Assembly (NCBI RefSeq): GCF_000473085.1
Contig: NZ_AXBA01000004.1
Coordinates: 183,166 to 247,165, forward strand
From: Azorhizobium doebereinerae UFLA1-100
GTDB lineage: Bacteria > Pseudomonadota > Alphaproteobacteria > Rhizobiales > Xanthobacteraceae
Length of the DNA: 64,000 nucleotides
Direction of reading: 5' to 3'
Positions 17,205-30,662 of the stretch are shown here, one piece after another. Every line of letters starts with the position of its first letter. Positions within the stretch are counted from its first letter, which is position 1. The notes under the pieces are model-generated. The model had not been told where the DNA came from, did not search any database, and saw only the letters and a list, made by a program, of their open reading frames with translations. The position numbers and the translations under genes were made by a program.

Positions 17205-17223
17205 TTGTGCGCATAACGCACAA
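17205..17223. promoter_or_regulatory. IclR-type operator, site 2
   Basis: TTGTGCGCATAACGCACAA is a palindrome with perfect 7-bp arms around CATAA, 17 bp before the catI/pcaI start. An additional half site (CCGTGCGATAA) lies at about 17188. The pair of matching sites flanking the divergent promoters is strong evidence for binding by the adjacent IclR protein. The palindrome rules out the upstream GTG at 17207 as the gene start. Confidence 0.65.
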
Positions 17224-17239
17224 AACGAGGATGGGAGAG

Positions 17240-18103
17240 ATGGCGCAATTCTTGTCGCTGGAGGACGCGATCCGCGCGTGCGTGCACGACGGCGATACGG
17301 TCGCGATGGAAGGCTTCACCCATCTCATCCCGCATGCGGCGGGCCACGAGATCATCCGCCAGGGCCGGCGCGACCTTGCCCTGGTGCGCATGACGCCGGA
17401 CCTGATCTACGACCAGCTCATCGGCATGGGCTGCGCCCGGGCGCTGCGCTTCTCCTGGGGCGGCAATCCCGGGGTGGGCTCGCTGCACCGCTTCCGCGAC
17501 GCGGTGGAGAACGCCTGGCCCCGGCCGCTGGCGATCGAGGAGCATTCCCACGCCGCCATGGCCAATGCCTATGAGGCGGGGGCCGCCAACCTGCCGTTCG
17601 CCACCCTGCGCGGCTATATCGGCACTGATCTGCCGAAGGTGAACCCGAACATCCGCAGCGTGACCTGCCCGTTCACCGGCGAGGTGCTGGCGGCGGTGGC
17701 GGCGATCCGGCCGGATGTGGCCATCATCCACGCCCAGCGCGCCGACCGGCACGGCAATGTCGCCCTGGAAGGCATCGTCGGCGTGCAGCGCGAAGCGGTG
17801 CTGGCGGCCAAGCGCTCCGTGGTCACGGTGGAGGAGATCGTCGAGGACTTCGGCCCGCGCTCGCCCAACGCCGTCATCCTGCCGTCCTGGACGGTGACCG
17901 CCATCAGCCACGTGCCGGGCGGGGCCTATCCCTCCTATGCCCACGGCTATTACAGCCGCGCCAACGCCTTCTACATCGCCTGGGACGCCATCGCCCGCGA
18001 CCGCGACACCTTCCTCGCCTGGATGGACGCGAACGTGATGAAGAAGACCCCGGCGGATTTCGCCGTCCATGCGCGCCCCGCCGCGCTGGCCGCAGCGTCC
18101 TAA
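17240..18103 (+). CDS. pcaI: 3-oxoadipate CoA-transferase alpha subunit (CatI/PcaI type)
   Basis: Alpha subunit of 287 aa of a family I CoA-transferase, which moves CoA from succinyl-CoA to 3-oxoadipate. The ATG at 17240 follows GATGGGAGAG. Motifs include DGDTVAMEGFTHLIPHAAGHEIIRQG and HAQRADRHGNVALEG. The length matches the longer CatI/glutaconate CoA-transferase branch rather than the roughly 230-aa PcaI branch. It starts the three-gene terminal beta-ketoadipate operon. Glutaconate transfer is the alternative, but pcaF and the IclR context support 3-oxoadipate. Confidence 0.85.
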   Translation: MAQFLSLEDAIRACVHDGDTVAMEGFTHLIPHAAGHEIIRQGRRDLALVRMTPDLIYDQLIGMGCARALRFSWGGNPGVGSLHRFRDAVENAWPRPLAIEEHSHAAMANAYEAGAANLPFATLRGYIGTDLPKVNPNIRSVTCPFTGEVLAAVAAIRPDVAIIHAQRADRHGNVALEGIVGVQREAVLAAKRSVVTVEEIVEDFGPRSPNAVILPSWTVTAISHVPGGAYPSYAHGYYSRANAFYIAWDAIARDRDTFLAWMDANVMKKTPADFAVHARPAALAAAS

Positions 18104-18116
18104 AGGAGGCGGACCC

Positions 18117-18884
18117 GTGAGCGACTTCACCCCCACCGAAATGATGACCATCGCCGCCGCCCGCGCGCTCAAGGCGAGCGACGTGTGCTTCGTCGGCATC
18201 GGCGCCCCCTCCGCCGCCTGCAACCTGGCGCGCCTCACCCATGCCGAGGGCATCACGCTGATCTATGAGAGCGGCACCATCGGCACCGAGCCGCGCGTGC
18301 TGCCTTTGTCCATCGGCGACGGCGAATTGTGCGACACTGCGCTCACCACCGTCTCGGTGCCGGAGATGTTCCGCTACTGGCTCCAGGGCGGGCGCATCAC
18401 CATCGGCTTCCTCGGCGGCGCGCAGATCGACCGTTTCGCCAATCTCAACACCACCGTGGTCGGGCCCTACGACAGGCCGAAGGTGCGGCTGCCGGGCGGC
18501 GGCGGCGCACCGGAGATCGCGGCCCAGAGCGGCGAGGTGTTCATCACCATGGCCATGGGCTCGCGCGCCTTCGTGGAGAAGCTGCCCTTCATCACCTCCA
18601 TGGGCCATGGCGAGGGCGGCGATCATCGCGCCCGCCTCGGCCTCGCCACCAAGGGGCCGACCCGCGTCTTCACCGATTTGTGCGTGATGGAGCCGGACCC
18701 GGAGAGCCGCGAATTGACCGTGGTGTCGCTGCATCCGGGCGTGACGCGCGATCAGGTCCAGGCCGCCTGCATGTGGCCGCTGCGCTTTTCCGCCCAGCCC
18801 GGCGAGACGCCGGCGCCGACCGCCGAGGAACTGGCGATCCTGCGCGACCTGCACGCCCGCACCAAGGCCGCGCACGCGGCCTGA
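18117..18884 (+). CDS. pcaJ: 3-oxoadipate CoA-transferase beta subunit (CatJ/PcaJ type)
   Basis: Beta subunit of 255 aa. The GTG at 18117 is fixed by a consensus AAAGGAGG six to seven bases upstream. The catalytic glutamate of family I transferases is probably Glu51 in LIYESGTIG, where others have ENG. GMG-like glycine loops and LPGGGGAPEIA follow. It partners with the preceding alpha subunit. The gap of 13 bp and the strong ribosome site suggest balanced translation of the two chains. Confidence 0.85.
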   Translation: MSDFTPTEMMTIAAARALKASDVCFVGIGAPSAACNLARLTHAEGITLIYESGTIGTEPRVLPLSIGDGELCDTALTTVSVPEMFRYWLQGGRITIGFLGGAQIDRFANLNTTVVGPYDRPKVRLPGGGGAPEIAAQSGEVFITMAMGSRAFVEKLPFITSMGHGEGGDHRARLGLATKGPTRVFTDLCVMEPDPESRELTVVSLHPGVTRDQVQAACMWPLRFSAQPGETPAPTAEELAILRDLHARTKAAHAA

Positions 18885-18919
18885 GGCACCCCAAACATCA
18901 AGCATAAAGGCAGGACGGG

Positions 18920-20119
18920 ATGGACGCCTTCATCGTCGATTACATGCGCACGCCCTTCGGCCGCTACGGTGGCGCCCTCGCGCCGGTGCGCCCGGACGAC
19001 CTGGCGGCGGTGCCGCTGCGCGCGCTTTTGGCGCGCAACGCCGGGCTCGATCCGGAGGCCGTTGACGAGGTGATCCTCGGCTGCGCCAACCAGGCGGGCG
19101 AGGACAATCGCAACGTGGCCCGCATGGCGGTGCTGCTGGCCGGCCTGCCGGTCAGCGTGCCCGGCACCACGGTCAACCGGCTGTGCGGCTCGGGCCTCGA
19201 TGCCATCGCCATCGCCGCGCGGCAGATCAAGAGCGGCGAAGCCGACCTCATCATCGCCGGCGGCGTCGAATCCATGTCGCGCGCGCCGTTCGTCATGCCG
19301 AAGGCGGAATCCGCCTTCTCGCGCCAGGCGGAGATTTACGACACCACCATCGGCTGGCGCTTCGTCAATGCGAAGATGAAGGCCGCCTACGGCGTCGATT
19401 CCATGCCGGAGACGGGGGAGAATGTGGCCGCCGACTTCCATGTCTCGCGTGCCGACCAGGACGGCTTCGCTTTGCGCAGCCAGCACCGCGCGGCGGCCGC
19501 CCAGGCGGCGGGCCTCTTCGCGCAGGAGATCCAGCCGGTGGAGATCGCCGGGCGCAAGGGCACCGTGACGGTCGCCGCCGACGAGCACATCCGCGCCGAC
19601 ACCACGCTGGAGGGCCTCGCCAGGCTCGGCACGCCCTTCCGCGCCGGCGGCACGGTCACCGCCGGCAATGCCTCGGGGGTGAATGACGGCGCGGCGGCCC
19701 TGCTGATCGCCTCCGCCGCCGCCTGCGCGCGCTGGAACCTGACGCCGCTCGCCCGCGTCAGCGGCGGGGCGACGGCGGGCGTGCCGCCGCGCATCATGGG
19801 CTTCGGCCCGGCGCCGGCCACGCGCAAGCTGCTGGCCCGGCTCGGGCTGGCCATGGGCGACATCGATCTCGTGGAGCTGAACGAGGCCTTCGCCAGCCAG
19901 GCGCTGGCCGTCACCCGCGACCTCGGCCTGCCGGACGATGCGGATTTCGTCAATCCGAACGGCGGGGCGATCGCGCTCGGCCATCCGCTCGGCGCCTCGG
20001 GCGCGCGGCTCGCCGGCACGGCGGCGCTGGAGCTGAAGCGCCGGGGCGGGCGCCGCGCGCTCGCCACCATGTGCATCGGCGTCGGCCAGGGCATCGCGCT
20101 GGCGATCGAAGCGGCCTGA
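18920..20119 (+). CDS. pcaF: 3-oxoadipyl-CoA thiolase
   Basis: Thiolase of 399 aa that cleaves 3-oxoadipyl-CoA to acetyl-CoA and succinyl-CoA. The acyl-carrier cysteine is in [11 protein letters not shown] near residue 89. [11 protein letters not shown] is the PcaF-type signature, the catalytic His is in [16 protein letters not shown] and the second Cys is in TMCIGVGQG. Genomic order after pcaIJ makes the assignment firm, although general acetyl-CoA acetyltransferases look alike. It ends convergently with an IclR gene over a GC-rich hairpin. Confidence 0.9.
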
Positions 20120-20149
20120 GCGCGGCGCGGCCGCGCCAAGCGTGGTCCG

Positions 20150-20172
20150 GAGCGGGCGGCCGACGCCCGCTC
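20150..20172. terminator. GC-rich hairpin between convergent genes
   Basis: A 9-bp perfect stem (GAGCGGGCG pairs with CGCCCGCTC) with a GCCGA loop lies between pcaF and the IclR gene and reaches the IclR stop codon. It has no T run, so its strength as a terminator is uncertain. Confidence 0.45.
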
Positions 20173-20917
20173 AGCGGAACACGTCGTCGATGGCGGTGGC
20201 GGCGTGGCGGAGCGCGTCCGCGAGGTGCGGGTGCTGCCCGGCATAGCGCGCCTCGGGCATGACGATGGAGAGCGCGTAGCGCTCCGGCGTCTGCGTCTCC
20301 AGGGTGATGCCGATGCCGCAGACGCCGTCGAGATGCTCGCAGACGTCGTGCGCGAGGCCGGCCGCGCGAATCGCCGCCAGATCCCGCAGCAGGGCCTTGA
20401 GGGTGCGGACGGTGTGGTCGGTGCGCTGCTCCCAGGGCATGGCGAGCCGGCGCTCCACCTCCGCATCGCTCATCGCCGCCAGCAACGCCTTGCCATGGGC
20501 GGTGCAATAGAGCGGCAGGGCCGAGCCCACCGGCGTCACCACGCGCAATTCCCGGTCCGAGGCCACCTGGTCCACCAGCACCGCGTGGGTGCCGCGCAGC
20601 ACGGAGAGATTGACCGTCTCGTGCGTGGCGCGGCCCAGCGCCTCGATATGCGGGCGCGCCACCCCGGCCACGTCCAGGAACGCGGCGCCGGCGAGGCGGG
20701 TGATGGCCGGGCCGAGGCGGAAGCGGCCATCGACGCCCAGCGCGAGCTGCTGCGCCTGCAAGGCGGTGACAAGGCGCTGGACCGTGGTGCGCGGCAGCTC
20801 GGTGGCGCGCGCCAGGGCGGCGAGGGTCAGGCCCTCGCTCTGCCCCTCCAGGGCGCGCAGCACCGCCGCCGCGCGGGCGATCACCTGCCCGCTGTTGAGG
20901 TCCTTGTCCTGTTCCAC
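20171..20917 (-). CDS. IclR-family transcriptional regulator
   Basis: Regulator of 248 aa. The GTG at 20917 is chosen because GGAGAGGA lies five bases upstream; a TTG at 20956 would extend it. The winged helix includes [29 protein letters not shown], and the effector domain includes [16 protein letters not shown] and [10 protein letters not shown]. It lies downstream of, and on the same strand as, the MFS and amidohydrolase genes, 63 bp after the latter, and probably controls them or belongs to their operon. No IclR-type palindrome like that of the pca region is obvious next to it. Confidence 0.85.
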
Positions 20918-20980
20918 CCGCGTCCTCTCCTGCTCCGGCCGGGCACGCAACGCCAAGGCCGGGGCGGCGTCAAGCCGGCG

Positions 20981-22084
20981 CTACCGGGTGATCCGCAAGA
21001 GCGCGGCGGCGTTGCCGGAGGCCACCGCCTGCCGCTCCGCCGCGCTCGCGCCCGCATGGTCCATCCAGTCGCACGCCACCTTGCTGTCCTCGAACGGATA
21101 GTCGATGGAGAACATGACGTTGCGCGGGCCGATGGCGTCCAGCGCGCAGCGCAGCGCCGAATCGGAGAACACGCCCGAGGTGGTGATGAAGACGTTGTCG
21201 CGGATATAGTCCGAGGGCTTCCGGCGCAGCGTGTAGCGCTGGTTGCTGATGGGGAAGCGGCTGTCGAGGCGCGAGGGCTGGATCGGCAGCGTCTCGCCCA
21301 TGTGGCCGAGGATGATGCGCGCGTCGGTGTGGCGGTCGAAGGTGCCGCGGAAGATCAGCCGCAGCGCGTGGGTGCAGGTCTCCGCCGCCCAGCTCCAGGT
21401 CGGTCCCCACAATTCGGGATGGTCGGCATAGGCCGGCGCCATGGCGGGCGGGTTGCCCGGATGGATGTAGACGGCGGCCTTGAGCGCGGCCACCCGCTCC
21501 CAGAACACCTCGTAGCGGGGCTCGTCCAGATAGGCGCCGTTGGTCTCGCCGTTCACCAGCGCGCCCTGCATGCCGAGGTCGCGCATGCAGCGCTCCAGCT
21601 CGTCCGCCGCCGCGCGGGGATCCTGCAAGGCGAGATGGGCGAAGCCGCCGTAGCGGCGCGGCTGCTTCTGCATCTCCTTGGCCAGCCGGTCGTTGGCCGA
21701 GGCGGCGAGGCGCACCGCCTTGGCGGTGTCGGGCTCGATCTGCACGCCGGGGCCGGAGATGGACAGCACCGACATGTCCACGCCGTTGGCGTCCATGGTG
21801 GCGAGGCGGCGCTCGCCGAAATCGGACAGGATCGGCACCACCTTGTCGAACAGGTCGGGCCGGATGTTCTGCTTGGTCTCGGCCAGGTAGTCGATGAAAT
21901 CGGGGAAGATGATGTGCTCTTCCAGGGCGATCTTGCCGACCCGCCCGGCGGCGGGGGCAGGCGGGGCGTGGGCGGGCGCGGCGGATCCGGCATCGGCGGC
22001 GAGGGCGTGGCCGGCGAGCGCCGTTGCGCCGAGGGCGCCGGCCACGCCGAGCACCTGCCGGCGGGAGGGGATGGACTTGGGCAT
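20981..22084 (-). CDS. Tat-exported amidohydrolase, gamma-resorcylate decarboxylase-like
   Basis: Metal-dependent TIM-barrel protein of 367 aa. The N-terminus carries a twin-arginine signal (SRRQVLG near residues 7-13, then AGALGATALAGHALA), predicting folded export to the periplasm. The mature part begins GKIALEEHIIFPDFIDYL, the ExH metal motif of the ACMSD/resorcylate decarboxylase branch. VYIHPGNPP, LGHMGETLP and the catalytic Asp in SIDYPFEDSK follow. Its ATG directly follows the MFS stop codon, with AGGAGACCGC just upstream, so translation is coupled. Export is unusual for this branch; the substrate is probably an aromatic acid. Confidence 0.82.
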   Translation of the reverse strand: MPKSIPSRRQVLGVAGALGATALAGHALAADAGSAAPAHAPPAPAAGRVGKIALEEHIIFPDFIDYLAETKQNIRPDLFDKVVPILSDFGERRLATMDANGVDMSVLSISGPGVQIEPDTAKAVRLAASANDRLAKEMQKQPRRYGGFAHLALQDPRAAADELERCMRDLGMQGALVNGETNGAYLDEPRYEVFWERVAALKAAVYIHPGNPPAMAPAYADHPELWGPTWSWAAETCTHALRLIFRGTFDRHTDARIILGHMGETLPIQPSRLDSRFPISNQRYTLRRKPSDYIRDNVFITTSGVFSDSALRCALDAIGPRNVMFSIDYPFEDSKVACDWMDHAGASAAERQAVASGNAAALLRITR

Positions 22085-23248
22085 CTAGCGGTCTCCTGGT
22101 GAAGCGGCGATCAGCCGGCGGGCGGGGCGCAGGCGGGCGTAAAGATGGGCGGACGCGACCAGCGCGGCGAGCAGGATGGCGAGCGCGAACCCCGTGCCGG
22201 GCGCGCCGGGCAGGCGCTCGGCGAAGGCGGCGAGGAACTGGCCGAGAAACAGCGACAGGGCCAGGGCGGCGAGCTGCCGGCCAAGCTCGCCCGGCGCGCT
22301 GGTCTCGATCACATGGTGGTTGAGCAGCGGCACGGATAGGCCGAAGCCACAGCCCATCAGCGCCCCGCCCGCCACCCGCGCGGCCAGCGGCAGTTCGCCG
22401 GTGAACAGCGCGAAGGCGGCGGCATAGCAGGCGAAGGCGAGCGCATAGACGCCATGGTGCCCGAGCCCGCGCACGAGGCGCGGCATCTGCGAGGCGGCGC
22501 AGACCGCCACCAGCGAGGTGAAGGACAGGAACAGGCCGATGCCGGCGCTGTCCAGCCCCGCCGTGCCGAGCCGGACGGGCAGGCCGAGCACGCCGATGAA
22601 GAAGATCAGCATGGCGGCGGTGGCGGTGGCCAGCAGGCCCAGCGGCCGGCGCACGGGCCCCGTTGGATGGTCCGCCCGCGCCGCGCCCGCGCCCGGCCGC
22701 GGCAGCCGGGCGAGCTGGAGGCCGAGCAGCGGCCAGGCCAGCAGATAGAGCAGGAAGGGGGCGCGCCAGTCCAGGGTGGCGAGCCAGCCGCCGAGCGCCA
22801 GGAAGACGACGCCGCCCAGTTCGATGGCCATGCCCTGGCGCGCGATCATGCGCAGGCGCGCCGCCGGCTCGCGCCACAGCCGCGCGATCAGGGTGGTGCC
22901 GCCGGTCATCACGCAGGCGGTGGCGAGGCCCAGCAGCAGGCGGTCGAGATAGACCGGCGCCGGGCCATGCAGCAGCGGCCCCGCCGCGCCGAGCAGGCCG
23001 TAGGCGGCAAGGCCCATGGCGAGGGTGAGATAGGCGCCGTGCCGGTCGATCAGCCGTCCGGCCAGCGGGCTGCCCAGGATCACGCCCAGCGCCGGCAGCG
23101 TCACCAGCCAGCCGGGGCTGCCCACCTTCAGCCCGGCCGCCGCCTGCTCGACGCCTGGCACGATCACGCACCCCACCATGATGGTGAGGCAGGCGACGAG
23201 CAGGAGCAGGACGGCGGCGAGCGGCGAGGGATGGGGCGCGTCGGGCAT
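22085..23248 (-). CDS. MFS transporter
   Basis: Twelve-helix-type major facilitator of 387 aa from the ATG at 23248. The first helix is LAAVLLLLVACLTIMVGCVIV. The loop 2-3 motif is SPLAGRLIDRHGAY, close to the family GXXXDRXGR. Further hydrophobic segments extend to YLLAWPLLGLQLARLP, and there is a second bundle from about residue 200. It precedes the exported amidohydrolase in one operon, suggesting uptake of that enzyme's product or efflux of its substrate. Two TetR-type palindromes lie 7 and 27 bp upstream of the start. Confidence 0.88.
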   Translation of the reverse strand: MPDAPHPSPLAAVLLLLVACLTIMVGCVIVPGVEQAAAGLKVGSPGWLVTLPALGVILGSPLAGRLIDRHGAYLTLAMGLAAYGLLGAAGPLLHGPAPVYLDRLLLGLATACVMTGGTTLIARLWREPAARLRMIARQGMAIELGGVVFLALGGWLATLDWRAPFLLYLLAWPLLGLQLARLPRPGAGAARADHPTGPVRRPLGLLATATAAMLIFFIGVLGLPVRLGTAGLDSAGIGLFLSFTSLVAVCAASQMPRLVRGLGHHGVYALAFACYAAAFALFTGELPLAARVAGGALMGCGFGLSVPLLNHHVIETSAPGELGRQLAALALSLFLGQFLAAFAERLPGAPGTGFALAILLAALVASAHLYARLRPARRLIAASPGDR

Positions 23249-23254
23249 AAAATA

Positions 23255-23287
23255 ACCGTTAGTCGGTCGTTGTGACCGTTGTTCGGT
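23255..23287. promoter_or_regulatory. Doubled TetR-type operator upstream of the MFS gene
   Basis: Two 13-bp palindromes of the form ACCG-N5-CGGT, ACCGTTAGTCGGT at 23255-23267 and ACCGTTGTTCGGT at 23275-23287, begin exactly 20 bp apart, about two helical turns. Each half site is typical of TetR-family operators. No TetR gene is found anywhere in the window, so the regulator must act in trans if this is real. Confidence 0.6.
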
Positions 23288-23345
23288 TATGCGCCGGGAC
23301 GCGGCATTCGTCAACGCCCGGCGCCTGCGGGGCGTCGGACGCGAA

Positions 23346-23375
23346 AAAGGCGGCTCCGCGCAGCGGGCCGCCTTT
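23346..23375 (-). terminator. Rho-independent terminator after the TctA gene
   Basis: A 9-bp stem (AAAGGCGGC pairs with GCCGCCTTT) with an inner CCGC/GCGG pairing is followed on the minus strand by further T residues (five in all). It lies 28 bp past the TctA stop and ends that operon. Confidence 0.7.
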
Positions 23376-23402
23376 CCTGAGGTCGCGAAGGTGCCGGCGG
23401 GG

Positions 23403-24788
23403 CTAGCCTGTGATGAGCTTGGTGAGCGCCGGGACGGTGAGGACGGCGGTGTAATAGCCCATGAACTGCACGCCGGTGTTGAAGCCGAGCACGCGGTAGA
23501 GCAGGCCGCCGACGAGGCCCATGGCGACGATGACCATGAGGCCCAGCAACTGGCCCTCCCACACGCCGATCACCATGACCAGGCCGACGAAGGTGGCGAT
23601 GATCGCCTCATGGCTGATGCGCCGCGAGACGAAGGCCGCCGCCACGCGGGCGTAGTTCATGGCGAACGGATAGGCCACCAGCGCCGCGATGAACACCGCC
23701 AAGAGGCCGTAGCCGAGGAACTGCCAGGGGGTCATCAGCGTGTGCAGGTTGACGATCTGCCCGCCGGGGCCGTCCACCATGAAGCGCGGCGGGGCGTTGA
23801 ACAGCGGCGCCGCCGGGCCCGCCGCCACCGGGGAGAGCGGCAGGCCGAAGGCGATGAGCGGGATCAGCGCCTCGGCGATATAGGTGGATTCGGTCACGCC
23901 GTTGCGCACCGCCAGAACCGTGGTGAGCCGGTGATAAGCATGCTTGATGCGCGCCCCCACCACCTCGCCCATGATCACCGTCATGGCCACCGGGCTGAAC
24001 ACGAAGGTGGCGCTGGTCACCGCCGCCGCGCCCGTGGTCCAGGCCAACTGCGCGCGGTCGAGCACCTTGAACGGGTTGGGGAAATAGCCGCCCCACGCCT
24101 TCACGTCGGGGGCCAGCGAGAAGCGGCGCGGGCCGTCGCGGTGCATGCGCCCGCGCTCGATCGGCGAGAGCACCGAGAACAAATCGGCCACCAGCGGCCC
24201 GATGGCGATGCCGAGGAAGTAGCTGACGCCGAGCTTCACGCCGAACTTGGCGGTGAAGGTCTGCAACGCCACCACCAGCAGCACGAACGGCACCAGCGCG
24301 AACACCGAGGCCCACTTGCCGGCGGAAAAGTAGGCGATCAGCAGCGCGGCGCCGAGGAAGATCCAGGGGGCGGCGGTGGTGATCATCTGCCCGAACGGCG
24401 CCAGCAGCAGCGCGAAGCCCACCGAGAGCGGCACCGCGATCACCGCCGCGATCAGGCCGCCGGAGATCATCTTGCGCAGCGCGATGTGCGGCACGCCGAG
24501 ATTGCGCAAGGCGGTGGCCTGTTGCAGCAGCGGCACCGCCATGGTGTCGCCGGGAATGCCCAGCAAGGCGGTGGGCACCGCGTGCGTCATGTGCTTGGAC
24601 ACGGCGGCGGCGAGCCAGAAGGTGAACACGCCCACCGGCGGCACGCCCAGCAGCACCACCAGCAGGGTCACCGGGGCGATGGTGGTGGTCTCGTCGGTGC
24701 CGGAGACGAGGCCGATGAGCGAGAAGGCGACGGCGCCGGCGACGCCCATGCCCAGCGCGACGAGAATATCGTAGAGAAGCCCGTCCAT
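23403..24788 (-). CDS. TctA-family tripartite transporter large permease
   Basis: Large membrane protein of 461 aa of the tricarboxylate-transporter TctA family. It starts MDGLLYDILVALGMGV and has the repeated family motif HAVPTALLGIPGDTMAVPLL, with a second glycine/proline-rich repeat near AFGLPLSPVAAGPAAP. It has about twelve hydrophobic segments. The gene follows a small two-helix protein gene by 1 bp. No TctC periplasmic receptor is present nearby, so the system either borrows one or is atypical. Because the HMG-CoA genes adjoin, mevalonate or a related C5-C6 acid is a reasonable but untested substrate. Confidence 0.85.
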   Translation of the reverse strand: MDGLLYDILVALGMGVAGAVAFSLIGLVSGTDETTTIAPVTLLVVLLGVPPVGVFTFWLAAAVSKHMTHAVPTALLGIPGDTMAVPLLQQATALRNLGVPHIALRKMISGGLIAAVIAVPLSVGFALLLAPFGQMITTAAPWIFLGAALLIAYFSAGKWASVFALVPFVLLVVALQTFTAKFGVKLGVSYFLGIAIGPLVADLFSVLSPIERGRMHRDGPRRFSLAPDVKAWGGYFPNPFKVLDRAQLAWTTGAAAVTSATFVFSPVAMTVIMGEVVGARIKHAYHRLTTVLAVRNGVTESTYIAEALIPLIAFGLPLSPVAAGPAAPLFNAPPRFMVDGPGGQIVNLHTLMTPWQFLGYGLLAVFIAALVAYPFAMNYARVAAAFVSRRISHEAIIATFVGLVMVIGVWEGQLLGLMVIVAMGLVGGLLYRVLGFNTGVQFMGYYTAVLTVPALTKLITG

Positions 24789-24789
24789 C

Positions 24790-25299
24790 TCATGCCCCCT
24801 TGGTGGCGGCCTGGGGCCGGCTGGCGGTTTGCGCGACGTCGCCGTCATAGGACGCGAACAAATCGTAGAGGCCGAGCTCCTTCATCTCGGCGGCCACTTC
24901 CGGCGGCAGATCGGCGACGCTGCCGATGCTGCCGGTCTCGCCGGCGAGCTGCTCCAAGGCGGCGATGCGCCAGGCCGGATCGGCTGCGGTCTCCAGCACC
25001 TCGCGCTTGGGGGCGAACAGGCGGGCGCAGATCACGCCGCTGACGAGGCAGCCGACGAGGCCCACCAGCATGGCATAGGCCTGGCCCACCGCCGCCACGG
25101 CGATGAAGCCGGCGAAGATGCGGGCGGCGACGAGATAGGTGCCGAGGCTGACGGCGGCGCCGATCACCACCGCGGCGGCGAGGTGGCGCAGGTCCACCAC
25201 GTCGCCCCAGACCTCGGCCAGATGGCCGGCGGGGCGGGTGCGCGATGGCGGGGCCGGGGGTCGCGCGAGCGACGGATGTGGCGTGGATGCTCCTTGCAC
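24790..25299 (-). CDS. Small membrane protein paired with the TctA permease
   Basis: Protein of 169 aa from a GTG start (25299) with GGGAGGA and AGGA upstream. It contains two hydrophobic segments (AAAVVIGAAVSLGTYLVAARIFAGFIAVAAVG and AYAMLVGLVGCLVSGVICARLF) and a long acidic/Ala-rich cytoplasmic tail. TctB subunits usually have four helices, so this is at most a reduced TctB analogue. Tight linkage to the TctA gene supports a role in the same transporter. I do not recognise a named family. Confidence 0.65.
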   Translation of the reverse strand: MQGASTPHPSLARPPAPPSRTRPAGHLAEVWGDVVDLRHLAAAVVIGAAVSLGTYLVAARIFAGFIAVAAVGQAYAMLVGLVGCLVSGVICARLFAPKREVLETAADPAWRIAALEQLAGETGSIGSVADLPPEVAAEMKELGLYDLFASYDGDVAQTASRPQAATKGA

Positions 25300-25368
25300 G
25301 TCTGGTCCTGATCCTCCCTGTGCGGTGTCTTATGCTTTTTGGCGTCGGGCGCACGTTGGCGGCGTGCG

Positions 25369-25402
25369 CGGCGGCGGCATCGGTTGCGCGATGCCGCCGC
25401 CG
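25369..25402. repeat. Inverted repeat 1 in the 276-bp gap
   Basis: GCGGCGGCAT at 25371-25380 pairs with ATGCCGCCGC at 25391-25400. Two more base pairs at the base give a 12-bp stem over a 10-nt loop. It lies upstream of the small TctA-linked gene and could be part of its leader. Confidence 0.5.
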
Positions 25403-25441
25403 TATCGGTGTGGCCCGTGCGGGCTCGGGTTCCGGCCGTGC

Positions 25442-25469
25442 GCCGGCGGACGTTGGCGGGTCCGCCGGC
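25442..25469. repeat. Inverted repeat 2
   Basis: GCCGGCGGAC pairs perfectly with GTCCGCCGGC across an 8-nt loop. It is the middle of three consecutive perfect stems between the HMG-CoA reductase and TctA genes. Confidence 0.5.
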
Positions 25470-25473
25470 AGGC

Positions 25474-25505
25474 TTGAGCGCGGGCGTGCGGGCGCCCGCG
25501 CTCAA
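25474..25505. repeat. Inverted repeat 3
   Basis: TTGAGCGCGGGCG pairs perfectly with CGCCCGCGCTCAA (13 bp) around TGCGGG. It is the most stable stem of the gap and stands 11 bp from the palindromic 50-bp repeat. It lacks a T tract on the minus strand, so a role as terminator for the reductase gene is only possible. Confidence 0.55.
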
Positions 25506-25516
25506 TTAGGGGCGCT

Positions 25517-25566
25517 AGAGCCTGATCCGTTCGGGTTGAATCAACCTGAACGGTGAATCAGTCTCT
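25517..25566. repeat. 50-bp palindromic dispersed repeat, copy 1
   Basis: A 50-bp unit that begins AGAGCCTGATCC and ends GAATCAGTCTCT, with an almost perfect 13-bp inverted repeat in the middle (CCGTTC...GAACGG). A second copy with 46 of 50 identical positions is at 29612-29661. It lies 9 bp beyond the reductase stop codon. Confidence 0.75.
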
Positions 25567-25575
25567 GAACGTGCG

Positions 25576-26895
25576 CTAGCCGCGCAGGCGGGCGAGGATC
25601 TCCTTCGCCCGGTCGGTGCGCACGTCGTGCGCCTGCGCCAGCTCGGCGGCGACATGATCGATCTCCGCGCCCACGGCGCCGGCGACGATGGCGATGTTGC
25701 GGGCATGCAGGGCCATGTGGCCGCGCTGGATGCCCTCGGTCGCCAGCGCCCGCAGCGCCGCCATGTTCTGGGCGAGGCCCACCGCCACGGTGACTTCCGC
25801 CAGTTCCTGCGCGCTCGTCACCTTCAGCACCCTGAGCGCCGCCTGGGCGGCCGGATGGGTCTTGGTGGCGCCGCCCACGAGGCCGACGGCCATGGGCATT
25901 TCCAGCGTGCCGACGAGGCGCCCCTGCGTATCCATCTCCCAGGTGGAGAGCGAGGTGTAGAGACCGCTGCGCGCCGCATAGGCATGGGCGCCGGCTTCCA
26001 CCGCCCGCCAGTCGTTGCCGGTGGCGACGATGACCGGGTCGATGCCGTTCATGATGCCCTTGTTGTGGGTGGCGGCGCGGTAGGGGTCGATGGCGGCCAG
26101 CTCGTAGGCGTCCAGGATGCCCTCGATCATGCGGCGGCCGCTGAAGTCCTTGGTGGCGAGCGCCGCCTCGGGGATGCAGACCCGGGCGCGGGCGAGGCGC
26201 AAATCGGCGAGGTTGGAAAGGATGCGCAGGCGCACCTGCCCGCCGGTCAGCTGCTCAATTGTGGGCGCCACGGCTTCCGCCATGGTGTTCACCGTGTTGG
26301 CGCCCATGGCGTCGCGCACGTCCACCACCAGGTGCAGCACCACCATGGGGCCGCGCCGGCTGTTCGGGAACACGTGGATCTCGATGTCCTTGCAGCCGCC
26401 GCCGAGGCCGATCAGCACCTTGTCGCGGGCATTGGCGAGATCGAGGATCTGCTGGCGCGCCGCCAGCAGCTTCAGGCGCGCGCCATAGGGGTCGGTGAGG
26501 CCGAGCACCTGCACCTGGGCGCGCATGACCGGCGCGGTGCTGGAGGTCTCGAAGCCGCCGTGGTCACGGGCGATGCGCGCCATGTAGGAGGCGGCGGCCA
26601 CCACCGAGGGCTCCTCCACCACCATGGGCACCAGATAGTCGCGGCCGTTGACCTGGAAATTGGTGGCGATGCCGAGCGGCAATTCGAACGTGCCGATGAC
26701 GTTCTCGATCATGCCGTTGGCGCGCTCGACGGGCAGGGCGCCCTTTTCCCCGAACACCGCCACGTCCTCGGCGCTCAGGCTCACCGCCTGGGCGAGGGCC
26801 GCCAGCCGCTCGGCCGGGGTCTTGTTGCGGTAGTTTTCGAGACGCGAATTGATCTGGCGCGAATTGATCTGCGGCGCGGACGACTGCGAGCTCAC
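25576..26895 (-). CDS. mvaA: Hydroxymethylglutaryl-CoA reductase, class II (degradative type)
   Basis: Class II HMG-CoA reductase of 439 aa. The GTG at 26895 is set by AAGGGAGG five bases upstream, and the length fits the roughly 430-aa bacterial enzymes. Motifs are [17 protein letters not shown] (containing the catalytic Glu), [37 protein letters not shown] and a C-terminal GHMALHARN with the catalytic His. Class II enzymes can run in the oxidative direction, converting mevalonate to HMG-CoA. No mevalonate kinase or other isoprenoid genes are near, while HMG-CoA lyase is, so catabolism is the better reading. It is divergent from the MocR gene. Confidence 0.93.
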
Positions 26896-26941
26896 GAGGC
26901 CTCCCTTTCCGGTTCTTGAATTCTTCATTGACGATGCGCGA

Positions 26942-27005
26942 AACTGTCCTAGCATTCAGGGGACAATCAAGGGACAGTTCGTCGGCGTTTTGCCATGACT
27001 GTCCC
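26942..27005. promoter_or_regulatory. Cluster of ACTGTCC/GGACAGT boxes (MocR operator candidate)
   Basis: Four related half sites lie between the divergent mvaA and MocR genes: AACTGTCC at 26942, GGGGACAA at 26959, GGGACAGTT at 26971 and ACTGTCCC at 26998. They form two inverted pairs. MocR proteins usually bind repeated half sites in their own divergent promoters, so autoregulation and control of mvaA are likely. Confidence 0.6.
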
Positions 27006-27042
27006 AATAAAAGGGCAGGGACGGTTGAAGGAGGAACGGCCG

Positions 27043-28461
27043 GTGCGGCTGACGCGCGTGGACCAGATCGTCGATCATGTGAGCGGCGTGCTGCGCGCGG
27101 GCGGCTTCAAGCTGGGCGAGCGCCTGCCCTCCGTGCGGCAGGCGGCGCAGACCCATGGCGTGTCCAAGAACACCATGGCGGAAGCCTATGACCGGCTGGT
27201 CTCCGAGGGCCTGCTGGAGGCCCGCGCCGGCTCCGGCTACTACGTGGCGCATCTCGATCTCGCCCATGGCGCCGCCGAGCGCCCGCACGTGGTGGAGGCC
27301 GCCGACGTGGTCTCGCTGCTGCGCGAGCAATTGGACCAGCACCACGAGGTGCGCCCCGGCGACGGCCGCCCGCCCGCCTCCTGGATGGAGGCGTCCGAGC
27401 TCAGCCGGCACTTCTCCGGCTTCAAGGTGGCCGGGCCGGAGAGCGTGGACTTCGGCTATGGCAGCGTGCGCGGCTACGCCCCCTTGCGCGAGCGGCTGCG
27501 GGTCATGCTGCTGGACCGCTCCATCGCCGTGCCGCCGGACGGCCTGCTGCTGACCCACGGCGCCAACCACGCGCTCGATCTCATCATCCGCCATCTGGTG
27601 GAGCCGGGCGACATCGTGTTCGTGGACGATCCCGGCTACTACCCCTTGTTCGGCAAGCTGACGCTCGCCAAGGCGCAGATCGTCGGCATTCGCCGCGGCC
27701 CGGACGGGCCGGACCTGAACGACCTCGAATCGAAGCTCGCTTTGGGGCGGCCGAAGCTGTTCTTCACCCAGTCCCTGGCGCACAATCCCACCGGCGGCTC
27801 GCTCTCGCCCGCCTGCGCCTTCGGCCTGCTCCAGGCGGCCGAGCGCTGGGGCTTTCGCCTCGTGGAGGACGATGCCTTCGCCGACATATTGCCCTCGACC
27901 CTGCCGCGCCTCGCCGCGCTCGACCAGCTCGACCGAGTGCTCTATGTGGGCACCTTCGCCAAGACGCTCTCCGCCAGCCTGCGCAGCGGCTTCGTGGCGG
28001 GCGATCCCGCCCTCATCGCCGCGCTGAGCGACATCAAGATGATCACCTGCGTGGCGACGTCGGATTTCGTCGAGCGCTTCATCTTCGGCCTGATCCAGGG
28101 CGGCCAGTATCTGCGCCACCTGCGCCGCCTGCGCGCCCGGCTGGAGGAGGCCAGCAAGCGCGCCGTGGCGGAGCTGGGCGCGCTGGGCCTGAAGGTGCAC
28201 GCCAGCAAGGTGCCGGGCTTCTATCTCTGGGTGGAACTGCCGGCCGGGGTGGACGAATTGGAGCTGTCCCGCGCCGCCGCGGCCGAGGGCATCTTCCTGG
28301 CGCCGGGGCAGATCTTTCGCCCCGGCCGCGCGCCGCTGGAGGCGGGCGCCATGCGGGTGAACGTCGCCTATGGCGCCGACCCGCGCTTTCTCCATTTCCT
28401 CGCGCGGGCGCTGCCGGGCAGCCGGGGGCCCGTGTCCATGCTCCAGAACGGAACCACCTGA
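27043..28461 (+). CDS. MocR-type regulator (GntR winged helix fused to class I aminotransferase)
   Basis: Fusion regulator of 472 aa from the GTG at 27043, which has AAGGAGG eight bases upstream. An ATG at 26995 is less likely because it lies within the operator-like boxes and lacks a ribosome site. The N-terminal GntR helix-turn-helix is [35 protein letters not shown]. The PLP-binding domain has [18 protein letters not shown] and the Schiff-base lysine in [14 protein letters not shown]. It is followed after 1 bp by HMG-CoA lyase and faces HMG-CoA reductase. It is therefore the predicted switch of this mevalonate locus. Confidence 0.9.
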
Positions 28462-28462
28462 C

Positions 28463-29359
28463 ATGGCCTTTCCCAAGAACGTCCGCATCGTCGATGTCGG
28501 CCCGCGCGACGGGTTGCAGAACGAGGCCGCCATCGTGCCGGCGGCGGTGAAGATCGAGCTGATCGACCGCCTCGCCAGGGCCGGCGTGGTGAGCATCGAG
28601 GCGGGCAGCTTCGTCTCGCCCAAATGGGTGCCGCAGATGGCCGACAGCGCCGACGTGCTGGCCGGCATCGCCCGCGCGCCCGGCGTGTCCTATCCGGTGC
28701 TGGTGCCCAACATGAAGGGCCTGGAGGCGGCGCTCGCCGCCGGCGTCACCGAGGTGGCGGTGTTCGCCTCGGCCTCGGAGGCGTTCTCGCAGAAGAACAT
28801 CAACTGCACCATCGAGGAGAGCCTGGAGCGCTTCGCCCCGGTGATGGCGGCGGCCGCCGCCGCCGGCGTGAAGGTGCGGGGCTATGTGTCCTGCGTGCTC
28901 GGCTGCCCCTACCAGGGCGAGGTGCCGTCCACCGCCGTGGCCGAGGTGTCGCGCCGCCTCGCGGAGATGGGCTGCTATGAGGTCTCGCTCGGCGACACCA
29001 TCGGGGTGGGCACGCCGCGCAAGGCGGTGGCCATGCTGGACGCGGTGCTGGCGCAGGTGCCGGTGGCGCAGGTGGCGCTGCATTTCCACGACACCTACGG
29101 CCAGGCGCTGGCCAACATCTATGCCTGCCTGGAGCGCGGCGTGTCGGTGCTGGATGCCTCCGTGGGCGGGCTCGGCGGCTGCCCTTACGCGGCGGGGGCC
29201 AGCGGCAACGTGGCGAGCGAGGACCTGGTCTACATGCTGCACGGCATGGGCATCCGCACCGGCATCGACCTCGACCAATTGGTGGAGACGGCGATGTTCA
29301 TCTCCGCCGCCATCGGCCGCCCGCCGGCCTCCCACGTGGCCAAGGCCCGCATGGGGTGA
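28463..29359 (+). CDS. mvaB: Hydroxymethylglutaryl-CoA lyase
   Basis: TIM-barrel lyase of 298 aa that splits HMG-CoA into acetyl-CoA and acetoacetate. Signature segments are [12 protein letters not shown] at the N-terminus, the metal/substrate region [33 protein letters not shown] and the catalytic Cys in [14 protein letters not shown]. The gene starts 1 bp after the MocR stop and is surely cotranscribed with it. Together with the divergent reductase it completes mevalonate to central metabolites. A leucine-degradation role is the alternative, but no leucine genes are nearby. Confidence 0.93.
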
Positions 29360-29383
29360 GGCCGAAGGGCGGGGCCGGCGCCC

Positions 29384-29584
29384 TCACGGCGCCAGCAGCG
29401 GCCGCAGCAGCAGGGCGAGCCCGCCGGCCGCGAGGCTGGCGAGGATCGCCGCCGCGAGCACCACGGCGGCATGCAGGGCCGCCACCGCCGGCGCGGACAG
29501 CTGCGGCGCGGACAAGGGCCGCCAGCCGCCGTGCCAGGGCTCGTAGCGGGTCACGGACGGCGGTTGGCCGGGAAAGCGGGACAT
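29384..29584 (-). CDS. Small single-pass membrane protein
   Basis: Protein of 66 aa whose ATG at 29584 has a consensus AGGAGG six bases upstream, which supports a real gene. The first half is Pro/Trp-rich and soluble (RYEPWHGGWRP). The second half is one hydrophobic helix (AVAALHAAVVLAAAILASLAAGGLALLL). I do not recognise the family. It is convergent with the HMG-CoA lyase gene, and the palindromic repeat copy 2 lies just upstream of it. Confidence 0.6.
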   Translation of the reverse strand: MSRFPGQPPSVTRYEPWHGGWRPLSAPQLSAPAVAALHAAVVLAAAILASLAAGGLALLLRPLLAP

Positions 29585-29611
29585 GACGGACCTCCTGATG
29601 GCCCGGACGCC

Positions 29612-29661
29612 AGAGCCTGATCCGATCAGGCTGAATCAACCTGATCGGTGAATCAGTCTCT
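29612..29661. repeat. 50-bp palindromic dispersed repeat, copy 2
   Basis: Same 50-bp unit as 25517-25566. The inner arms here read CCGATC...GATCGG: compared with copy 1 the left-arm T to A change is matched by a right-arm A to T change, so pairing is kept. Confidence 0.75.
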
Positions 29662-29686
29662 CGCTTATTGATGGAGAGCGATTCAC

Positions 29687-29724
29687 GACCCGCATCGCAG
29701 CACCGAAGTGCTTAGATGCGGGTC
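29687..29724. repeat. Long stem-loop next to repeat copy 2
   Basis: GACCCGCATC at 29687-29696 pairs with GATGCGGGTC at 29715-29724, and an inner AGCAC/GTGCT stem closes a CGAA tetraloop. Directly after it lies the palindrome ACGCTAGCGT. This structure is absent beside copy 1, so copy 2 may belong to a longer mobile repeat. Confidence 0.6.
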
Positions 29725-29762
29725 GATCGCACGCTAGCGTGAGCTTGATCATTGAAAAACGC

Positions 29763-29783
29763 ATCACTACAGATTTCAGTGAT
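29763..29783. promoter_or_regulatory. Candidate LysR operator
   Basis: ATCACT and AGTGAT form a perfect inverted pair around nine bases, 27 bp before the LysR start, containing a T-N-A core of LysR type. The sequence GATTTCA is repeated just downstream (GATTTCAATGA). Autoregulation by the adjacent LysR protein is the simplest reading. Confidence 0.45.
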
Positions 29784-29810
29784 TGCGGATTTCAATGACT
29801 GGCGCAGGCG

Positions 29811-30662
29811 ATGAAAGCTCTGGATGTGGAGGCGGTGCAGGCCTTCGTGCTGGTGGCGGAGCTGAAGAGCTTCACCCGCGCCGCCGAGGCGCTGGACACC
29901 ACGCAGTCGGCGGTCAGCCTCAAGATCAAGCGGCTGGAGGCGGTGCTCGGCCGGCGCCTGTTCGAGCGCACGCCGCGCATGGTGCGCCTGTCCGCCGACG
30001 GCGGGCTGTTCCTGGAGCCGGCGCGGGCGCTGGCGGCGGCGCATCGCGACGCGCTGCAATCCTTCACCGCCGAGCGGCGGCGGCTGGTGGTGGGCATCAG
30101 CCACCACATCGTCGGCGCCGAGCTGCCGCTGCTGATCAAGCGCATGTCCGCCGCCGAGCCGCATGTGGTGCTGGAGCTGCGCATCTCCACCTCCCGCGAC
30201 CTGCTGGAGCAGTTCGACGCCGGCGCGGTGGACGCCGCCTTCGTGCTCCAGCACGACAATCGGCGGCGCGACGGCGACGTGATGTTCGCCCAGCATTTCG
30301 CCTGGATGGCGACGCCGGATTTCGAGCACCGCCCCGGCGCGCCGCTGTCGCTCGCCACCCAGCCGGGCAACTGCGGGGTGCGGGCCATGGTGGTGGGCGC
30401 GCTGGACGCGGCCGGCATCGCCTGGACCGAGGTGTTCGTGGGCGGGGGCTTCGCCACCCTGGGCGCCGCCGTCTCGGCGGGCCTGGCGGTGGCTGGCCTC
30501 GGCCGCCGTTCCGTGCCGCCAGGGACGGTGGAGGTGGGCGCGCGGCTCGGCCTGCCGCCGCTGCCGAGCCGCGACGTGGTGCTTTATTCCAGCGCCGCCG
30601 ACCGGCCCGCGCGGGCTGCCCTGCGCGGCTTTTCCGCCATCCTGCGCGCCGCCAAGGCCTAG
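29811..30662 (+). CDS. LysR-family transcriptional regulator
   Basis: Regulator of 283 aa. The helix-turn-helix is VLVAELKSFTRAAEALDTTQSAVSLKIKRLEAVLGRRLFERTPR near residues 12-55. The effector domain has only weak similarity to named groups (VVGISHHIVGAELPLLIKRM). It starts 28 bp after an inverted-repeat operator candidate. No obvious divergent target exists because the neighbour upstream is the small membrane protein gene beyond the repeats. Its gene ends convergently with an SDR gene. Confidence 0.85.
   Translation: MKALDVEAVQAFVLVAELKSFTRAAEALDTTQSAVSLKIKRLEAVLGRRLFERTPRMVRLSADGGLFLEPARALAAAHRDALQSFTAERRRLVVGISHHIVGAELPLLIKRMSAAEPHVVLELRISTSRDLLEQFDAGAVDAAFVLQHDNRRRDGDVMFAQHFAWMATPDFEHRPGAPLSLATQPGNCGVRAMVVGALDAAGIAWTEVFVGGGFATLGAAVSAGLAVAGLGRRSVPPGTVEVGARLGLPPLPSRDVVLYSSAADRPARAALRGFSAILRAAKA

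Follow-up and report, generated by a model that had tools for sequence, protein, structure and literature searches.

A locus predicted to break down mevalonate under MocR control in Azorhizobium doebereinerae, with a divergent TctA-type carrier

Introduction

Sterol and terpene synthesis starts from mevalonate. In the literature drawn on here, its breakdown by bacteria is described mainly via one enzyme, HMG-CoA reductase. In Pseudomonas mevalonii, a degradative class II reductase gene (mvaA) lies near an HMG-CoA lyase gene (mvaB); mvaAB is an operon, and mevalonate uptake is inducible. According to an excerpt of PMC7503714, this organism grows on mevalonate only. A reductase of Burkholderia cenocepacia is nearly identical to a solved structure (6p7k), and its sequence record also contains a small gene and a TctA gene. 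That of Ruegeria pomeroyi equals the sequence of structure 9v7y except for the first residue and is encoded under a MocR regulator together with a TRAP importer; an R. pomeroyi reductase, presumably the 9v7y-like one, was assayed for mevalonate oxidation, as stated in an excerpt of PMC12292504.

In the known MocR-type regulons (PdxR, GabR, TauR, EnuR/EhuR), a regulator with a GntR domain and an aminotransferase domain carrying a PLP lysine goes with TGT boxes that recur in the region between the divergent genes. The main text of PMC5320631 contains none of the strings "mevalon", "hmg" or "mva". Here, we describe a locus of Azorhizobium doebereinerae that resembles these systems, found in a stretch of 64,000 nucleotides (contig NZ_AXBA01000004.1, positions 183,166 to 247,165), hereafter the window.

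Results

Layout of the locus and its enzymes

The four genes named in an earlier sequence-only reading are all present at 23403–29359. On the minus strand lie mvaA (25576–26895), encoding a class II HMG-CoA reductase, and the gene for a TctA-type carrier (23403–24788; 461 aa); on the plus strand, divergent to both, follow the genes for a MocR-type regulator (27043–28461; 472 aa) and HMG-CoA lyase (mvaB; 28463–29359). That reading had missed a fifth gene, also on the minus strand, which encodes a membrane protein of 169 aa between mvaA and tctA (24790–25299, start uncertain). Judging from the ribosome-binding sites, the start codons of mvaA and mocR are probably GTG at 26895 and GTG at 27043, respectively, so that the shared intergenic region spans 26896–27042. 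The gap between mvaA and the small gene is 276 bases long and contains a palindromic repeat, which leaves co-transcription of the two uncertain.

MvaA is a degradative class II HMG-CoA reductase by sequence, with NAD-dependent mevalonate oxidation as its predicted activity. In a profile search, it scored 424.8 bits against the "degradative" family TIGR00532 (cut-off 259.95) versus only 39.6 bits against the NADPH reductase family, and it matched structures 6dio (660 bits) and 1qax, the P. mevalonii enzyme (636 bits). In an ungapped alignment to 1qax, E95, K279, D295 and H393 occupy the catalytic positions and D158 the NAD-type position; K279 and H393 correspond to K267 and H381 of P. mevalonii, and the counterparts of the other three we take to be E83 and D283 (catalytic) and D146 (NAD type). 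MvaB is likewise well above its family cut-off (NF004283; 475.1 versus 246 bits), matches the structure of human HMG-CoA lyase with 397 bits, and is the only one of four matches in the genome to exceed the cut-off. The pair of enzymes is what the locus shares with P. mevalonii; the divergent MocR, defined boxes and TctA-type carrier belong to the window, so the comparison extends to the enzymes only.

Conservation in other genomes and on plasmids

A search for the same synteny elsewhere, suggested by the sequence-only reading, found the layout conserved: of 80 reductase loci fetched, 30 have a divergent MocR, and 19, all with MocR, encode an orthologue of the window's TctA (71–78% identical), with the small gene between the reductase and TctA genes each time. 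The predicted regulon is spread over alpha-, beta- and gammaproteobacteria, and the cluster occurs in many environmental bacteria. The 11 MocR loci without TctA contain a TRAP importer in five cases, a LIV-type ABC importer adjoining mvaA in two and a sugar-type ABC importer in one; in the other three (L013, L018 and L023), no importer adjoining mvaA was found. Lyase was not found in the fetched stretch of 11 of the 30 MocR loci, and 9 of 39 proteobacterial loci lack a recognised MocR beside the reductase. When plasmids were searched from the TctA side, all six records had a reductase gene 495–603 bases upstream on the same strand, plus MocR; plasmid contexts were fetched for 10 of 37 records with a reductase match. 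Assignment of the TctA to general tricarboxylate uptake was rejected because the reductase adjoins it in 6/6 of these records. Among 385 genomes of the class, the window-type TctA occurs only in the window's own genome, and these are too few cases for an analysis of co-occurrence.

The arrangement had been supposed to be absent from described mevalonate users. It does, however, extend to enzymes already described: the B. cenocepacia reductase close to 6p7k is encoded in the same layout, with MocR divergent to reductase, small gene and TctA. Rhizobium etli 8C-3 shares this layout as well. Like the window, both the B. cenocepacia and R. pomeroyi clusters have a divergent MocR beside the reductase; in R. 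pomeroyi, the TRAP importer stands where the window has TctA.

Pathway context in the genome

Class II HMG-CoA reductases are reversible, and the genome encodes, outside the locus, a protein resembling HMG-CoA synthase (244.7 bits, under the family cut-off of 360). Both points would suit a reductase that runs biosynthetically, its mevalonate going into isoprenoids or a secondary metabolite. However, no mevalonate kinase exceeded the cut-off in a profile search of the genome, which does encode the MEP enzyme Dxr, the reductase falls in the degradative family, and in other genomes it has a regulator, an importer and often the lyase as neighbors. We regard a biosynthetic role as highly improbable.

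The cluster might also degrade another branched acid or CoA ester, such as 3-hydroxy-3-methylglutarate or leucine-derived HMG-CoA, with mevalonate playing only a minor part, as substrate or as product. The last step of leucine breakdown, too, uses HMG-CoA lyase, MvaB is the only such lyase of this genome above the cut-off, and some clusters (L028, L029, L109 and L119) contain family III CoA-transferases. On the other hand, the eight proteins scanned from 20981 to 30662 include no member of the leucine pathway other than the lyase, the reductase has, to our knowledge, no role in the routes of 3-hydroxy-3-methylglutarate or leucine, and lactonase-like genes lie 3′ of TctA in L009, L020 and L036. 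We consider such a substrate unlikely. Acetoacetate-CoA ligase is encoded elsewhere in the genome (1012 bits). Two CoA-transferase-like genes at 17207–18884 matched subunit models weakly (31.8 and 29.3 bits, far under the cut-off) and were not counted as pathway members.

The TctA carrier and its small partner

As in tripartite tricarboxylate transporters, the window's TctA exceeds the PF01970 cut-off, but with 60.4 bits (cut-off 28.9), where the genome's five other TctA genes score 494–555 bits. A structure search with its model (mean pLDDT 68.6) gave no hit with E ≤ 0.001. Whereas tripartite transporters have a four-helix TctB, the partner here is predicted to have two membrane helices and, in addition, a soluble helical portion, and no TctC gene lies alongside. 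The small protein had no match in Pfam or NCBIfam, and a structure search with its AlphaFold model (pLDDT 94–96 in the membrane hairpin) gave nothing informative. For comparison with TctB, the five four-segment genes beside the genome's other TctA genes served as reference, treated as TctB on the grounds of their position and hydropathy; the profile comparison gave a probability of 2.9%. An ordinary TctB at 24790–25299 was rejected on this value and on the number of helices, two versus four.

The receptor subunit TctC had been noted as missing. It is indeed absent at the locus, yet this looks characteristic of such carriers rather than a gap. In a BLAST search with four TctC proteins of the window's genome, none of the 19 sister loci with the same TctA had a TctC gene adjoining tctA, the nearest TctC-like genes lying 4.6 kb (L017) and 5.6 kb (L016) away. 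None adjoined tctA in the six plasmid records either. A loss unique to the window was rejected on these grounds and because two of 18 genomes with the cluster lack TctC.

The TctA could nevertheless belong to a normal three-part transporter whose TctC is encoded elsewhere. The window's genome contains eight TctC genes, three of which are not beside any TctA identified there, and 16 of the 18 cluster-bearing genomes contain TctC (the count covers every one of the 19 loci with TctA except L032, which comes from a MAG); because of these numbers, an unlinked receptor is possible in the window's genome. In addition, the sections of the TTT review drawn on here (PMC5812351) raise the possibility of a single TctA being shared by several TctC. 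Against this stand the partner protein, which is not TctB-like, and two of the 18 genomes (completeness of these two not given), which have no TctC at all and the cluster TctA as their only TctA (the check for other TctA genes covered four of the 18). We consider an unlinked receptor somewhat unlikely; judging from these comparisons, the carrier is remodelled and would probably be receptor-independent.

The MocR regulator and its operator

The regulator combines a GntR helix-turn-helix (PF00392) with an aminotransferase domain (PF00155), whose PLP lysine (K307) is kept in 31/31 aligned sequences. The regulator is under the cut-off of each group model compared (PdxR, 205.5 versus 320; YczR, 165 versus 487; MocR, 162 versus 650; EhuR, 134 versus 480; GabR, 98 versus 600). 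As in the known MocR regulons, repeated TGT boxes lie between the divergent genes: CTGTCC (26944–26949), GGGACAA (26960–26966), GGGACAG (26971–26977) and CTGTCCC (26999–27005). In 31 intergenic stretches, 58 exact boxes of this type were found, compared with a mean of 1.4 and a maximum of five among 200 shuffles. The spacing is 27–28 bases in 17 of the 31 stretches; in the window, 28 bases separate 26971 from 26999.

Residue 46 of the recognition helix covaries with one operator base. Where it is Ala, the base is C (11/11 loci), and where it is Val, Ile or Leu, the base is A in 32 of 36 loci, with four ties; the 16 loci fetched later, with the pattern already known, agree with it without exception. 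The comparison omits L092 and L093, which are covered by L108 and L109, and L094, because its MocR-like gene is not divergent to the reductase gene. The base is C in the window and A in B. cenocepacia and R. pomeroyi. Since the Ala-containing regulators form one clade (one change; support 97/99), the covariation represents a single event kept in 11 loci rather than many events.

A genome-wide search with the paired-box pattern gave four matches at three places (the window, L103 and L105), and no further regulon members are claimed from it. The match in L103 lies close to what looks like a response-regulator gene.

Discussion

The locus is likely to be a MocR-controlled regulon for mevalonate catabolism, with a divergent TctA carrier and a small membrane partner that would import mevalonate. 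The sequence-only reading had proposed such a regulon, and synteny, boxes, covariation, interchangeable importers and the downstream chemistry now lend it good comparative support, its function being a prediction. TctA and the small protein would act as the importer, working without a periplasmic receptor; MvaA would oxidise the imported mevalonate to HMG-CoA, which MvaB would cleave to acetoacetate and acetyl-CoA. The substrate would be mevalonate, and perhaps also mevalonate lactone in relatives with a lactonase-like gene. Acting at the CTGTCCC boxes in the shared intergenic region, MocR would switch the operons on either side, with mevalonate as its putative inducer. Such an effector is amine-free, which sets it apart from those of the GABA, taurine and ectoine regulators already described; as mevalonate lacks an amine for aldimine formation, the regulator may bind the acid non-covalently beside PLP.

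More tentatively, and with somewhat less than even confidence, TctA and the two-helix protein may constitute a new receptor-independent secondary transporter for mevalonate, and MocR may sense an amine-free acid, with operator recognition resting on a helix residue and a base that have changed in concert. The TTT review, in the sections drawn on here, poses the question of whether TctA can work without TctC (PMC5812351), and the two genomes in which the cluster TctA is the sole TctA and TctC is absent bear on it. The locus likewise poses the problem of how an effector unable to form an aldimine could act on a PLP-binding regulator. A mevalonate-responsive regulator, for which this MocR is a candidate, would help the sensing of a widely engineered metabolite. 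Beyond the one enzyme, the locus offers a complete, testable regulon across alpha-, beta- and gammaproteobacteria, together with a candidate mevalonate importer.

Genes of the locus and their pathway context

The locus has a reverse-strand arm, comprising mvaA (25576–26895; class II HMG-CoA reductase), tctA (23403–24788; TctA-type carrier) and a small gene between them (24790–25299), and a forward-strand arm, comprising mocR (27043–28461; regulator) and mvaB (28463–29359; HMG-CoA lyase). MvaA scored 424.8 bits against TIGR00532 ("hydroxymethylglutaryl-CoA reductase, degradative") and 39.6 bits against the NADPH family; among solved structures it comes closest to 6dio (660 bits), followed by the P. 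mevalonii enzyme 1qax (636 bits). Ungapped alignment to 1qax places the catalytic positions at E95, K279, D295 and H393, and D158 at the aspartate position tied to NAD preference. As reference residues of the P. mevalonii reductase we take E83, D283 and D146. Residues K267 and H381 of that enzyme are given in PMC7503714. MvaB is a close relative of human HMG-CoA lyase (397 bits) and is the only one of four matches to the HMG-CoA lyase model in its genome that exceeds the cut-off.

The genome also encodes an acetoacetate-CoA ligase (1012 bits). The sequence-only reading had remarked that no isoprenoid-pathway gene accompanies the cluster. In the genome, the single mevalonate kinase match falls far short of the cut-off (33.1 vs 163 bits), and Dxr of the MEP route is encoded. 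Counting against the catabolic reading is an HMG-CoA-synthase-like protein of the same genome (G000:C1:56808-57911), which reaches 244.7 bits, under the cut-off of 360.

A palindromic repeat element occurs in two copies, at 25534–25561 and 29629–29656 (probe mismatches: 0 and 2); the former, in the gap between mvaA and the small gene, could influence read-through, and the latter sits past mvaB. Downstream of tctA on the same strand lie a gene for a carrier of the major-facilitator type and one for an Amidohydro_2 amidohydrolase (20981–23314, −), probably a separate unit. The region 17207–20956 holds a 3-oxoadipyl-CoA thiolase gene (TIGR02430, 672 bits) next to two CoA-transferase-like genes with weak matches to subunit models, and an IclR-like regulator scoring under the cut-offs of the listed models.

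Conservation of the layout

The sequence-only reading had proposed looking for the arrangement elsewhere, and it recurs. When species genomes were scanned and the best 80 of at least 592 stretches kept as loci, a MocR gene (recognised by similarity) adjoined the reductase gene in divergent orientation in 30 of the 80, and a TctA orthologue (71–78% identity) followed downstream with the small gene in 19, all 19 with MocR. Proteobacteria contributed 39 of these best 80, including all 30 MocR loci; the other nine had no recognised MocR beside the reductase. The lyase gene lay inside the fetched stretch in 19 of the 30 MocR loci, and the window's exact order (lyase-MocR//reductase-small gene-TctA) was found in L008, L009, L020 and an R. 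etli 8C-3 plasmid. Among 72,556 plasmid records searched with TctA (E limit 1e-20), six matched, each with MocR and a reductase match 495–603 bases off on the same strand; in three (two Roseomonas, one Lichenicola) the reductase is 53–54% identical to the window's.

The reductase is present in 8 of 61 genomes (own included). One of two same-genus genomes lacks it, and the other carries a 53–54% identical version inside an equal MocR//reductase-small gene-TctA layout. Judged from these sequences, the cluster is therefore patchily distributed, and regulator and carrier can persist while the reductase type changes.

Two reductase loci with no recognised adjoining MocR, L051 (Xanthobacter tagetidis) and L067 (an Aquamicrobium MAG), pair a GAF/PucR-type regulator with a family III CoA-transferase, which may be a second mode of control. 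Family III CoA-transferase genes also lie close to the reductase in L028, L029, L034, L109 and L119, where they perhaps serve 3-hydroxy-3-methylglutarate.

Importers and the carrier pair

TctA takes the importer's place in the cluster, because TRAP or ABC importers stand there in other MocR loci: the 30 comprise 19 with TctA, five with TRAP (L015, L019, L031, L035, L038), two with a LIV-type ABC importer adjoining mvaA (L007, L011), one with a sugar-type ABC importer (L021) and three with none adjoining mvaA (L013, L018, L023), although L018 and L023 have LIV-type genes beyond mocR. Pfam was searched with one set each of TRAP and LIV importers and with that of L021, and the remaining importers were assigned to these by BLAST. 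Nine of the 11 window-clade MocRs are paired with TctA and two with TRAP. A lactonase-like gene (closest solved relative DrP35, 282 bits) lies downstream of TctA in L009, L020 and L036, and in L118 and L021, where the importer is of ABC type, SMP-30 or strictosidine-synthase-like genes are present; the genes of both kinds in these relatives fit mevalonolactone as a putative second entry.

The cluster's TctA scored 60.4 bits against PF01970, compared with 494–555 bits for the genome's five other TctA proteins. Its small partner gene, kept beside tctA across loci, encodes a protein with no match in Pfam or NCBIfam models; 453 relatives were found at E 1e-5 or better, and none of the 120 listed has a Pfam domain. 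The predicted model shows two long helices (pLDDT 94–96) and three short ones. The small genes next to the genome's five other TctA genes are presumed to be tctB and encode four hydrophobic segments; profile comparison of the cluster's small protein with these presumed TctB gave 2.9% probability.

That the receptor subunit TctC is missing at the locus, as had been noted, extends to related loci: no TctC-like gene adjoins tctA in the 19 sister loci, the nearest lying 5.6 kb off in L016 and 4.6 kb off in L017. The window's genome has eight TctC genes, three not adjoining a TctA. TctC occurs in 16 of 18 genomes with the cluster (covering 18 of the 19 TctA loci) and was not found in Caballeronia hypogeia (8.3 Mb) and Burkholderia ambifaria RZ2MS16 (8.1 Mb), genomes of unstated completeness whose sole TctA is that of the cluster. 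TctA without TctC is called rare and unexplained in PMC5812351.

The proposed MocR switch and its predicted operator

At least one exact CTGTACC or CTGTCCC box stands in every one of the 31 intergenic stretches, taken from the 30 loci plus the window; there are 58 altogether, against a mean of 1.4 and a maximum of 5 in 200 dinucleotide shuffles. Of the 31, 17 show a reversed box with a forward box 27–28 bases further on. The window's boxes, its predicted operator, start at 26944, 26960, 26971 and 26999, and the first is overlapped by one weak promoter-like site (26928–26955, +).

Box type follows residue 46 in the MocR recognition helix. Where it is Ala (11 loci), C boxes outnumber in all 11; where it is Val, Ile or Leu (36 loci), A boxes outnumber in 32 and tie in four (L094, whose MocR-like gene is not divergent, was left out). 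Of these loci, 16 were retrieved only once the pattern had been noticed, and all of them agree. In the tree, the Ala regulators form one clade and therefore reflect one joint residue/base change retained in 11 loci. The PLP lysine is kept in all 31 aligned MocRs, although mevalonate, the predicted effector, has no amine group. Ala-C and Leu-A are among the general residue-base preferences in PMC4494728.

Relation to described systems

The sequence-only reading knew of no described mevalonate user that combines MocR with TctA. In B. cenocepacia, a reductase that almost matches structure 6p7k lies in a MocR cluster with TctA like the window's. The R. pomeroyi reductase, which equals 9v7y except for the first residue, lies in a MocR cluster with a TRAP importer. 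PMC12292504 assayed an R. pomeroyi reductase, presumably the MocR-cluster one, for mevalonate oxidation, and the B. cenocepacia enzyme is termed oxidative in the title of work cited by PMC13370337. Judged from titles and the opening of abstracts, no description of the regulon was found in literature on mevalonate with MocR, mevalonate uptake, transport, catabolism or growth, the tripartite tricarboxylate transporter or mevalonolactone, or among the best-ranked hits of broader searches (most subscription journals and the older P. mevalonii work lying outside this literature); "mevalon", "hmg" and "mva" are all absent from the main text of PMC5320631.

Mevalonate catabolism itself is already known. 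What is new is the conserved MocR control together with the remodelled TctA pair. It is predicted that mevalonate would be both substrate and inducer, that MocR would bind the operator boxes and that the carrier would work independently of a receptor.
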